A stretch of 64,000 nucleotides of DNA from Candidatus Poribacteria bacterium (GTDB lineage: Bacteria > Poribacteria > WGA-4E > WGA-3G): assembly GCA_028824125.1 (NCBI GenBank), contig JAPPES010000032.1, positions 1 through 64,000 of the forward strand. Direction: 5' to 3'. Below are positions 4,482 to 7,899 of the stretch, piece by piece (the stretch's first letter is position 1; each line of letters opens with the position of its first letter). A program made the translations under genes and the position numbers. The notes under the pieces are model-generated. The model was not told where the DNA came from. It did no database searches and saw nothing but the letters and a program-made list of their open reading frames with translations.

Positions 4482-5126
4482 TTAACCGTACCCATGTTTT
4501 TGTAAAAATTCTAAGTCTATCGTTTGCGATGGTGGGACATGGTTTTGTATCAGGGTTTCAATATAACGCGCCATCACATCAACTTCAATATTCACGCTAT
4601 CGCCGCTTCGCTTATTTCCAAGGGTCGTAACTTGTAAAGTATGCGGAATGAGCGCGACCTCAAACTTATTATCAGATACGTTTGCGATGGTTAAACTCAC
4701 GCCATCAACAGCAATAGAACCTTTATAGGCGATGTAGGGTTTCACTTCTGGACTAACTGTTACCTGCATGACTGCAGAGGTGCCTTCGTTCTTCCATCCG
4801 CTAATAGTCGCAATTTCATCAACATGACCTAACACCAAATGCCCGCCAATACGATCCCCTAACCGAAGTGAACGTTCCAGATTGACACGTGTGCCGACTT
4901 TGCATGAACGTAAAGTGGTTTTGCGGAGCGTTTCCTCACTTATATCCACAATAAACGTTCCCTGTTCAAGATTGCGGACTGTCAGGCACGGACCATCAAC
5001 AGCGATACTATCACCTATTTTGGCATCTTCCAGCACCGTTTCTGCCTTAATTTTGGCAGTTACACCGCTGGATTGCGGATGTACTTCGGTAATTGTGCCA
5101 ATTTCTTCAACGATTCCGGTAAACAT
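4482..5126 (-). CDS. ribE: Riboflavin synthase, alpha chain
   Basis: Dismutates two lumazine molecules to riboflavin. The protein starts with the diagnostic [10 protein letters not shown] and contains two lumazine-binding repeats: the first ends near residue 95, and the second begins at [17 protein letters not shown]. Length 214 aa is normal. Its ATG overlaps the TAA stop of ribD by one base (TAATG), which predicts translational coupling. The ribBA gene follows 23 bases after its stop. Confidence 0.96.
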
Positions 5127-6241
5127 TATTTAACGAAATATCCTTCAATCAATAGGTCACAGTCAAGTTGGGTGATAGTCAGTCGTTCTAATTCGGGTGC
5201 ATCAACTAAACGCGCTATCCCTTCACCGTCAAACACACCCGGTGCATCTTTGCCACCGATGAATTTGGGAGCAACAAAGCACATTGCCTTATCCACAACA
5301 CCTGACGCTAATGCACTCGCATTGACTTTGCCACCACCTTCTACCAAAACACTTGTTATCCCGCGTGCTCCTAATGTCTTCATCAACGTTTTGAAGCAGA
5401 CCTGACCATCTTTCGTAGGTGTAACGATAACTTCGGCACCCGCCTTTTCCAAAATAGCGATGTTTTTGTCAGGGGCTTGCGGCGTAACAGCAATAATAAC
5501 GCCAGCTTCACTTTCTGGGTTAAATATCTTTGCTGATGTCCGTGTGCGCCCGTGTGAGTCTAATACAACCCGCGTCGCGTCTTTTCCCTGTTTGTTCGGT
5601 AGTCTTGTCGTTAGAGCAGGGTTATCGCTTGTAATAGTCCCAATTCCGACAAGAATTGCGTCTACTTCATCGCGGACCTCATGCGCTTTTTGGCGTGATG
5701 CTGGAGACGTAATCCATTGCGATTCACCTGTGGACGTTGCGATTTTTCCATCCAAACTCATCGCCATTTTCAATATAACAAACGGGTAACCCGTTTTCAC
5801 ATGTTTTATGTAAATCTCATTTAAATTTTCCGCTGCTTCTGCACACACTCCCACGTTAACTTTTATACCTGCTTCTACTAACTGCTGAATACCTTTACCT
5901 GCAACTTTCGGATTCGGATCTAAATGTGCAGCAAAAACCTGGACAATTCCCGCTTCAATAAGCGCATCAGCGCAAGGTGGTGTTCGTCCCCAATGACAAC
6001 ACGGCTCAAGATTTACATAGAGTGTGCCACCTTTTGCTTTCTTATTAGCTGCGCGCAATGCGTGAATTTCCGCGTGGGGTTCACCTGCTTTCTGATGCCA
6101 CCCTTCACCGACAATCTTCCCAGCATTAACAATCACCGCGCCGACAAGTGGATTCGGACTTGTGCGTCCTTTTCCTTGCTGCGCCAAAGCCAATGCGCGG
6201 TTCATAAACGCTACGTGCGTCTCATTCATCGCATGCATCAC
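5126..6241 (-). CDS. ribD: Bifunctional diaminohydroxyphosphoribosylaminopyrimidine deaminase / reductase
   Basis: Carries out the second and third steps after GTP opening in riboflavin synthesis. The N-terminal deaminase has the zinc ligands in HAEIHAL and PCCHWGRTPPC. The C-terminal reductase begins about residue 150 (VILKMAMSLDGKIA) and includes GITSVLVEGGG. Length 371 aa is usual. Several Met codons lie at the start (MMHAMNETHVAFM); MNETHVAFMNRAL would also be an acceptable beginning. Only 22 bases separate it from the selenoprotein-like peroxiredoxin gene upstream, so both may be co-transcribed. No FMN riboswitch was recognised in that short spacer. Confidence 0.95.
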   Translation of the reverse strand: MMHAMNETHVAFMNRALALAQQGKGRTSPNPLVGAVIVNAGKIVGEGWHQKAGEPHAEIHALRAANKKAKGGTLYVNLEPCCHWGRTPPCADALIEAGIVQVFAAHLDPNPKVAGKGIQQLVEAGIKVNVGVCAEAAENLNEIYIKHVKTGYPFVILKMAMSLDGKIATSTGESQWITSPASRQKAHEVRDEVDAILVGIGTITSDNPALTTRLPNKQGKDATRVVLDSHGRTRTSAKIFNPESEAGVIIAVTPQAPDKNIAILEKAGAEVIVTPTKDGQVCFKTLMKTLGARGITSVLVEGGGKVNASALASGVVDKAMCFVAPKFIGGKDAPGVFDGEGIARLVDAPELERLTITQLDCDLLIEGYFVK

Positions 6242-6263
6242 CTACAATGCTGTACATATAATA

Positions 6264-6788
6264 TTATACCACATCTTTACTGCAATTCAAAATCATTTTA
6301 TTGCTATCTATTGACTTCAGACATTCAAGCACCTCAGTATGATCCACCAAATCAAACTGGTGCGATCCGATATACATATACCGAATTGTCCCAAGTTTGT
6401 CAATGAGGAAGGTGGCTGGTCTGGCAATGTTATATGCCTCAAAACTGAGCCAGTGATATACGCCATAACTCTTGATAACGCTCCGATCTTTGTCAACTAA
6501 TAGTGGGTAAGTAATTCCGTTTCGTTCAGCAAAACCTCGCAGTTCGCGAGGCCACTGTCCCGCAATAGCGATCGGTGTTGCGTTATATTTTGCGTAATCG
6601 TCAGAATGTTCTTGTACTGCAGCCAACTGGCGGCGGCTGTTTGGTCACCAGGTGCCTCGGAAAAAGGCTAAAATCACGTGTTGTTCTTCACGATAAGAGG
6701 CAAGTGACACAACCTGTCGCCGATGTGATGGCAGTGAAAATAGGGGCGCTGTATCGCCTATATTGAGGATTTTGTTTTTGCGTGGCAT
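6264..6788 (-). CDS. Peroxiredoxin-like selenoprotein (AhpC/TSA family) with in-frame TGA at the catalytic position
   Basis: Reading from ATG 6788 gives MPRKNKILNIGDTAPLFSLP... and then FFRGTW-U-PNSRRQL, where codon 48 (6645-6647, complement) is TGA. The frame then continues without interruption for 126 codons: AAVQEHSDDYAKYNATPIAIAG...YPLLVDKDRSVIKSYGVY...RPATFLIDKLGTIRY. In this thioredoxin-fold family the residue after GTW/GGW is the peroxidatic cysteine (pattern RGxWCPxC), so TGA sits exactly where catalytic Cys/Sec belongs. Total length of 174 aa is right for the family. The residue corresponding to the second Cys is Ser51, so resolution would need another thiol. An ordinary start at TTG 6626 would remove the active site. 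No strong ribosome site is seen before 6788. Confidence 0.85.
6620..6639 (-). promoter_or_regulatory. Candidate bacterial SECIS hairpin
   Basis: Five bases after the in-frame TGA, the transcript can fold CAGCC (6639-6635) against GGCUG (6624-6620) around a ten-base loop GCCGCCAGUU. Bacterial SECIS elements are stem-loops within the coding region just downstream of the UGA, with a G/U-containing apical loop. Position fits, but the stem is short (5 bp), so the structure is only tentative. Confidence 0.4.
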
Positions 6789-7238
6789 ACAGTTATTTTC
6801 GCAGAAAATAGGGGTTATGTCAAGTGTGTTAATCTGAATCGCGGATTATGCGGATTGCGAGAATTTTAAGAGTATCAGTGTTTGTAGTCGCGCAATTCAT
6901 TGCACCTCTTTGCCAACTATCAATCATCAGCGGTAGGCGCGTTTTGTAAACGCGCCTATATCTGTGCCAAAGTAACTACGGCGCGATTTTGCAAAATGCG
7001 CCTACAAGCGGCAGTGGAACGCTAAATTGACACCTATGGGTTAAGTTGCGAAAACTAATTTGCACGCTTGTGTATTCAGCATAATACGTGCAGGCAATTC
7101 CACCTCAAAGCCATAATCCGAGATTCAGACAAGTTTTTAGACACCCCAAATCAAAAATAGCTGAGTTTTCATTAGATTATGTGTTATAATAAGAGCATTG
7201 AATTTTGAACAATTTTAGGATTCTAATGAGGAGTTAGC
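6789..7238. repeat. Intergenic region with 297-bp MITE-like element
   Basis: No gene seen. The ends of an element lie at 6833-6850 (TCTGAATCGCGGATTATG) and 7112-7129 (CATAATCCGAGATTCAGA), which are inverted copies matching at 17 of 18 bases and sharing TCTGAATCGCGGA with the element at 2910-3050. Inside are two long hairpins, one with arms AGGCGCGTTT / AAACGCGCCT near 6935-6958 and a second with GGCGCGATTTTG / CAAAATGCGCC next to it. A good -10 box TATAAT at 7185-7190 could serve the following toxin-antitoxin pair; the -35 is poor. Confidence 0.65.
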
Positions 7239-7571
7239 ATGGTCCCCGAAATACAAACTGCTCAAGATATATGGCCAGAACTTGCTTCTATTGTATTCGT
7301 CCCGCGCACAGAGACTGATTATCAACGACTTTCAACGCTATGGGATGAGTTAAAGACTCTCATCGGTAAAAGCGAAAATCATCCGTTGGTTTCATTAATG
7401 GAAGTGGTTGAAGCACTTATTGAAAAGTACGAATTAGAACAAGCGTCCGCAGAACGCGAAGCATGGTGCGATCTCTCCATGAAAATGCTTGCACGAGCAT
7501 ACGGTGAAGATGAACCTGAGTACACAACAGATATGCTTAAATGGGTGAACCCAGATTATGAAGGAAAGTGA
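7239..7571 (+). CDS. Putative antitoxin of a type II TA pair (HigA N-terminal-like)
   Basis: A 110-residue acidic protein whose middle (VPRTETDYQRLSTLWDELKTLIG...LVSLMEVVEALIEKYE) resembles the N-terminal helical region of HigA-family antitoxins (RTExDY...LxxxVExYE). The helix-turn-helix domain that normally follows is absent; instead there is a short acidic tail (GEDEPEYTTDMLKWVNPDYEGK). It overlaps the MazF-like gene by 14 bases in a different frame, the arrangement expected for an antitoxin-toxin operon. A GAGG ribosome site precedes the ATG. Confidence 0.65.
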   Translation: MVPEIQTAQDIWPELASIVFVPRTETDYQRLSTLWDELKTLIGKSENHPLVSLMEVVEALIEKYELEQASAEREAWCDLSMKMLARAYGEDEPEYTTDMLKWVNPDYEGK

Positions 7572-7899
7572 TGTCATTCTTGCGCCGTTATACCAGTCTG
7601 ATGAAGAGCTAAAGTACAGACCCGCAATCGTTTTGCGAGAAATGCCAGCACCTTATCGCGACCTACTTGTATGTGGTGTAAGTACGAGATTGGATCAAAA
7701 CATCCAAGGATTTGATGATATTATTTCACCGTCTGACGCTGATTTTGCTTTAAGCGGTCTACGCTCGGAATCACTAATTCGACTTAGTTTTTTGGCAGTG
7801 ATCCCGCGTAGATTAGTACGTGGCACGATCGGCAACATTTCAGAGGAACGTTACAACCGTTTGAGGCAGAGGTTAGTTGATTATCTTATAAACATCTAA
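7558..7899 (+). CDS. MazF/PemK-like endoribonuclease toxin
   Basis: A 113-residue protein with the features of the MazF/PemK barrel: an N-terminal GDVxLxxF-like strand (SDVILAPLYQSDEELKYRPAIVL), the conserved KxRPAIVL core, VCGVSTRL, and the second-half SLIRLSFLAVIPRRLV followed by GTIGNISEERYNRLRQRL. Members cleave mRNA at short sequences and are neutralised by the neighbouring antitoxin. The start lies inside the end of the antitoxin gene. Family assignment is by motif only. Confidence 0.8.
   Translation: MKESDVILAPLYQSDEELKYRPAIVLREMPAPYRDLLVCGVSTRLDQNIQGFDDIISPSDADFALSGLRSESLIRLSFLAVIPRRLVRGTIGNISEERYNRLRQRLVDYLINI

Follow-up and report, generated by a model that had tools for sequence, protein, structure and literature searches.

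The locus and its neighbourhood

The window, i.e. the whole stretch of DNA analysed here, comprises 64,000 nucleotides of a Candidatus Poribacteria genome (5.59 Mb, 94% complete; contig JAPPES010000032.1, positions 1 to 64,000). Its minus strand holds a frame of 174 codons beginning with ATG 6788, in which a single TGA occurs at codon 48 (6647-6645). A preliminary description of this DNA had pointed to the lone TGA, and indeed the frame is otherwise open to TAA 6266-6264. Homology to the AhpC/TSA family before and after the TGA, claimed there as well, was confirmed: the read-through product scores 96.8 bits with Pfam AhpC-TSA (PF00578; cut-off 26), the match covering residues 10-138. The features discussed below are:

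6818..6823, minus strand: predicted -35 element, TTGACA
6795..6800, minus strand: predicted -10 element, GAAAAT, 17 nt from the -35 element and 6 nt before the ATG; arrangement present in 46/49 family loci
6267..6788, minus strand: coding sequence, 174 residues when UGA48 is taken as Sec, of the putative UxxS peroxiredoxin-like selenoprotein; terminated by TAA 6266-6264
6645..6647, minus strand: in-frame TGA, codon 48, in all probability read as selenocysteine; TGA in 54/55 orthologs, TGT in 1
6636..6638, minus strand: codon of Ser51, canonical peroxidatic position (UxxS); Ser in 55/55, aligned with the peroxidatic Cys of solved peroxiredoxins
6616..6637, minus strand: SECIS-like hairpin with a C.A mismatch in the stem; loop AGUU 6628-6625, 16 nt after UGA
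6417..6419, minus strand: codon of Pro124, corresponding to the cis-Pro of thioredoxin and to Arg in canonical peroxiredoxins; invariant in 55
5126..6241, minus strand: ribD, the next gene downstream (neighbour); mechanical ORF start GTG 6241, 22 bases after the selenoprotein frame

Among the loci of the window protein's own family, a TTGACA-17 nt-TATAAT-like pair scoring at least 10/12 was present in 46 of 49. Its gap to the ATG was 6 nt in 44 of these and 7 nt in the other two. As a control, 4431 other plus-strand ATGs in the same loci were considered, and 27 of them scored as high. A Shine-Dalgarno-like motif was found in none of the 49 loci. A promoter 6-7 nt before the ATG together with the missing Shine-Dalgarno-like motif predicts a leaderless mRNA, and in its own family the selenoprotein gene is probably transcribed in this form. 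A literature search brought up no leaderless bacterial selenoprotein mRNA in the titles and abstract starts of the matches listed. A similar promoter, likewise with 6 nt to the ATG, precedes another gene (about 184 aa, MEE[STA]TPFY[DE]WW...) in several loci (L061 189, L062 1109, L063 1190, L065 1609, L074 2279). Leaderless genes may thus be common in the phylum.

The gene had been placed at the head of a riboflavin operon in the preliminary description. This gene order recurs within the own family, where 40 of 49 loci have a ribD motif at most 450 nt past the gene and two have it farther away (about 1.1-1.5 kb). In seven of the 49 no ribD motif was found; one of these loci ends just past the gene, the others comprise 1.4-3.0 kb of sequence. 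The order does not extend to the six loci of other families, in which no ribD motif was found either. Ahead of ribD, where the selenoprotein gene ends (6263-6290, minus strand), there is a promoter-like TTGAAT-16 nt-TATAAT site, which occurs at the same place in L058, L060 and L062. Possibly, ribD thus has its own promoter. Two small overlapping ORFs lie upstream of the selenoprotein gene (7239-7899, plus strand), the second of which has, by eye, a PemK/MazF-type look.

The selenocysteine machinery

The source genome contains selA (611.4 bits), selB (349.8 bits, cut-off 242.25) with an adjoining tRNA-Sec (anticodon tca), and selD (369.3 bits), whose own frame has a TGA (CAG-U-ASK). SelA, SelB, SelD and tRNA-Sec are the set expected of a bacterium that makes selenoproteins. 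A search for these genes had been proposed beforehand, and the absence of any such machinery had been named as the finding that would overturn the selenocysteine reading; all four components are present.

In the 59 genomes searched, selA was found in 50, and an ortholog of the window gene at E <= 1e-60 in 44 (hand count). Of the ortholog-bearing genomes 40 have selA, compared to 10 of the 15 without ortholog. No selA was found in the remaining four (G004, G006, G010 and G021; 81, 95, 73 and 86% complete), which we counted against the Sec reading.

Codon 48 among the orthologs

The search for orthologs returned 57 loci in addition to the window's own. L114 was left out, as the contig end cuts this locus at the TGA. 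L111 (labelled Latescibacteria) and L112 (labelled Gemmatimonadota) were left out of the residue counts, as they belong to other phyla and the residues after the codon differ. This left 55 distinct sequences. In 54 of them codon 48 is TGA and in one (L074) it is TGT, coding for Cys. TAA, TAG or any residue besides Cys, which the preliminary description had regarded as evidence against its reading, was found in none of the 55. Thus there is a conserved UGA at a redox position together with a Cys homolog, the combination by which bacterial selenoproteins are recognised. The two loci removed from the count likewise have TGA at the Sec codon. After the TGA they have RRS or KRS, and in their C-terminal half a stretch containing DKLG is repeated.

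In a tree, the Cys copy L074 and the TGA copy L092 form a pair within the Sec clade; since long branches meet in this tree, it was used only to place the Cys copy and not for the origin of the UxxS motif. This position suggests that Cys replaced Sec recently in L074. In G019, the genome with the matching Cys copy, selA is retained.

Active site and fold

The motif FFRGTWUPNSRRQL was aligned with solved peroxiredoxins (ApTPx, Bcp4, Sulfolobus tokodaii Prx and AhpE), an alignment that the preliminary description had suggested. Its alignment with FFPAAFSPVCTKEL (2cx3) has no gap across the motif, and the same holds for 3hjp, 2ywn and 4x1u. Hence Sec48 corresponds to the Thr/Ser of PxxxTxxC, and Ser51 to the peroxidatic Cys. 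Arg44 aligns with the motif Pro and Pro124 with the peroxiredoxin Arg. This corrects the earlier assignment of the TGA to exactly the peroxidatic Cys; it is the first position of (C/U)xxC, and the peroxidatic position is Ser51. In place of the canonical PxxxT(S)xxC/U plus Arg, the window protein has R44, U48, S51 and P124 for P, T, C and R, and R-U-S-P was found in all 35 aligned orthologs (with Cys for U in the Cys copy). According to PMC2757866, peroxiredoxins have Arg at the cis-Pro position and usually Thr at the N-terminal Cys. With Sec at the first Cys position and Pro124, the window protein thus has the thioredoxin state at both positions.

The claim of a single Sec with Ser in place of the second Cys is supported, as UxxC relatives have Cys where Ser is present in 55/55. 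Nor is any other Cys conserved; the commonest occurs in 25 of the 55 orthologs. An invariant GQWPRE stretch is present in the orthologs. With GPx structures as a guide, we speculate that it may occupy a place suited to a helper Gln of the GPx kind.

The predicted fold has a mean pLDDT of 85.1 (55 sequences). Its nearest solved folds are Bcp4 (3hjp; TM 0.84/0.92) and AhpE (1xvw, 4x1u; TM 0.80/0.87 for 4x1u_B). Like 1-Cys peroxiredoxins, the window protein has one redox residue, but compared with AhpE and Bcp4 this residue is shifted by three positions towards the N-terminus, and Pro takes the place of the catalytic Arg. ResA/TlpA-type oxidoreductases share the first-position nucleophile and the cis-Pro; the motif of ResA is GTWC. 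ResA chains were among the structural matches, the first of them (4nmu) at rank 38 among the best 50 listed. In contrast to ResA, the window protein has Ser instead of the second Cys and, by eye, no obvious signal peptide at its start, and it reaches only 51.6 bits with the ResA model PRK03147 of NCBIfam (cut-off 170). No NCBIfam family scored above its cut-off. Identity as a deiodinase or GPx was considered and dropped, as neither is in the Pfam list at E up to 5, in which most matches above about 0.1 are missed. Taken together, an AhpE/PrxQ-type fold combined with a thioredoxin-type site, in which a selenol is first in the CxxC motif, Ser second and Pro takes the place of Arg, is highly likely.

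Seven more AhpC/TSA domains with one in-frame TGA each at a redox position are encoded in the same genome (L116-L121 and L137); they are of the TxxU-type, UxxC and UGC types, some of them as neighbouring domains. The UxxC paralogs L117, L118 and L120 (PF00578) have Sec at the first motif position, as does the window protein, and L117 and L118 also share FYRGxW-U. At the four motif positions they have R-U-C-P (L117), R-U-C-S (L118) and A-U-C-P (L120). The cis-Pro position is thus Pro in L117 and L120, like in the window protein, and Ser in L118. All three retain the second Cys, whereas the window family has Ser in 55/55 and does not belong to this type. The TxxU-type paralogs share the fold family and UGA recoding with the window protein at an identity of 23-25%. 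Unlike the window protein, they have Sec at the peroxidatic position and keep the motif Pro and the Arg, with P-T-U-R in L116 and L119 and P-G-U-R in L121 (GxxU).

In two reviews (PMC9312934, PMC13188914), the motifs given for PF00578 selenoproteins are TxxU, UxxC, UxxU and UGC. One AhpC/TSA UxxS family is listed there, filed under PF13911 or cd02970; for this 'peroxiredoxin-like' selenoprotein the tables cite a paper on an Olavius algarvensis symbiont. The AhpC/TSA superfamily and UxxS are common to this protein and ours. The window protein, however, matches PF00578 (96.8 bits) and scores only 15.4 bits with PF13911 (cut-off 27). Hence the window family would be new in having UxxS in PF00578 rather than in PF13911, and in matching no NCBIfam model at its cut-off. 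A literature search on Poribacteria with selenoprotein or selenocysteine found no paper on a UxxS enzyme; one of the papers, PMC9999580, was represented by its title.

A SECIS-like hairpin downstream of UGA48

The preliminary description had noted a short hairpin just downstream of the TGA. Such a hairpin can form and the codons following the TGA are constrained, but the structural support is modest. Codons U+3 to U+7 are AGY (55/55), CGY twice (54/55 each), CAG (55/55) and TTR (55/55), whereas over the whole gene the codons chosen for Ser, Arg, Gln and Leu are mixed. Codon diversity relative to expectation was 0.53 at the 7 positions after the TGA versus 0.81 at 74 others (one-sided p 0.012). 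Compared with synonymous recoding, the folding energy has the lowest z of the gene at the TGA (mean about -1.1; next lowest elsewhere -0.64). L111 and L112, outside Poribacteria, keep AGY CGY CGY CAG TTG though the two residues after Sec differ. That the Cys copy (TGT) retains the hairpin counts against the reading.

The AGUU-loop register was the best of 7 registers with 83.8% of cells paired (47/55 sequences) and also had the highest covariation score. One of its pairs is altered on both sides in five sequences; however, the count of pairs altered on both sides did not exceed that of shuffles (reached by 415 of 500) and tied with one shifted register. The register was picked after the fold tables had been seen, and its lead over the shifted registers is thus partly due to selection. 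RNAalifold alone (47/55 orthologs) gave a 4-pair structure of -0.2 kcal/mol. In the window's own sequence the AGUU register has -8.0 kcal/mol versus an MFE of -8.9 in another register. When forced into the AGUU register, 26 of the 55 orthologs reached -7.5 kcal/mol; outside the gene's own family, four of six loci came only to -1.4 to -3.9 kcal/mol. The AGUU loop at 16-nt spacing matches the published bSECIS rule cited in PMC13188914; by plain MFE, 25 of the 55 satisfy this rule, and 12 show the AGUU loop at a distance of 16 nt. Rfam found nothing on the window and no SECIS match; from 6500-6800 it gave one chance-level lncRNA match only. A hand-drawn first register with a second helix was dropped, as only 58.7% of its cells were paired. 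Altogether, a SECIS at the place following the UGA is likely, while the exact AGUU fold is unproven.

Alternative readings of UGA48

Under translation table 11 a stop breaks the frame, as it would in a pseudogene with a nonsense mutation or after a sequencing error. Yet 54 of 55 loci, which come from MAGs with different names, share this codon, and a second stop is absent from the window's frame. The median dN/dS was 0.094 before the TGA and 0.076 after it (250 pairs were sampled, of which 165 and 105, respectively, could be used). Purifying selection thus acts on both sides, and selection 3' of the TGA equals that 5' in strength. A broken gene is hardly conceivable on these grounds, and the earlier argument that a chance nonsense mutation is implausible at this codon holds. 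The in-frame TGA would also be explained if TGA were reassigned to an ordinary amino acid, or read through with Trp or Arg and without Sec. The terminal stop of the 55 orthologs is TAA in 30, TGA in 21 and TAG in 4; that TGA closes the same gene in 21 loci speaks against a general reassignment. In addition, the sole non-TGA codon at this position is TGT for Cys, and the in-frame TGAs of the paralogs land on redox motif positions. Decoding as an ordinary residue is thus very improbable, and UGA48 almost certainly encodes selenocysteine.

What kind of site the selenocysteine occupies is a separate question. The AhpC-TSA match and the closest folds, AhpE and Bcp, would fit a canonical selenoperoxiredoxin with Sec as the peroxidatic residue of an AhpC/TSA enzyme. 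However, all four canonical residues are replaced, the alignments with four solved peroxiredoxins run ungapped across the motif, and it is the paralogs L116, L119 and L121 that have P-T-U-R or P-G-U-R instead. This makes a canonical enzyme improbable compared with a thioredoxin-type UxxS site. It is also conceivable that Sec is decoded but the AGUU hairpin is incidental and the codon constraint stems from another RNA structure, translation speed or an overlapping signal. The weak RNAalifold consensus, pair changes not above shuffles, the poor fit in four of six outgroup loci and the lack of an Rfam SECIS match point in this direction. On the other hand, the recoding z has a local minimum at the codon, loop and spacing agree with the bSECIS rule given in PMC13188914, and the two non-Poribacteria loci keep their codons with differing residues after Sec. 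We consider an incidental hairpin unlikely, and prefer a hairpin that serves Sec insertion.

Proposed mechanism and function

As a whole explanation, we regard it as very probable that UGA48 is read by SelB and Sec-tRNA(UCA) and that the product has a peroxiredoxin fold with a thioredoxin-type UxxS site. SelB and Sec-tRNA(UCA) would insert Sec at UGA48, aided by the hairpin directly 3' of the codon. The Sec48 selenolate, located at the start of the active-site helix, would then attack a peroxide or a mixed disulfide. Because there is no conserved resolving Cys, an external thiol, provided by a thioredoxin or a small thiol, would resolve the intermediate, as in CxxS/monothiol enzymes. As to the main role of the protein, the sequence gives a selenol peroxidase an even chance and makes a CxxS-type disulfide reductase somewhat less probable; the likeness of the whole fold to peroxiredoxins leaves room for peroxidase chemistry.

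Although a stop codon seems to break it, the gene almost certainly codes for a functional selenium enzyme, which many sponge-associated bacteria have retained. More tentatively, this could be a new type of monoselenol enzyme found across much of the phylum, with a peroxiredoxin chassis whose chalcogen occupies the site of the thioredoxin nucleophile and which has no further conserved Cys, so that chemistry like that of GPx or glutaredoxin would fall to the lone Sec. Within the own family, the leaderless mRNA would begin with the start codon, and the SECIS would lie less than 180 nt from this 5' end. The family is a natural test of Sec alone: it lacks a resolving Cys, its redox position is displaced by three residues, and a single Cys copy occurs naturally for comparison. 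Gene callers working with table 11 are likely to shorten or miss the gene in poribacterial genomes.

The selenoproteome of the source genome was sampled with PF00578, PF10262, PF02627 and selD. This one genome of a sponge-associated bacterium has varied redox proteins with in-frame TGA (TxxU, UxxC, UxxS, UGC, SelW and SelD types). A CMD/AhpD-family match with one internal TGA, a candidate Sec codon at most, is present at G000:C118:8524-8685. In another AhpC/TSA domain (L134, FLIGST), which adjoins the TGA-containing domain L119 on the same contig, the peroxidatic position is Ser. A SelW-type protein with a CTS-TGA motif (CTSU) is encoded at 1498-1719 of L143.
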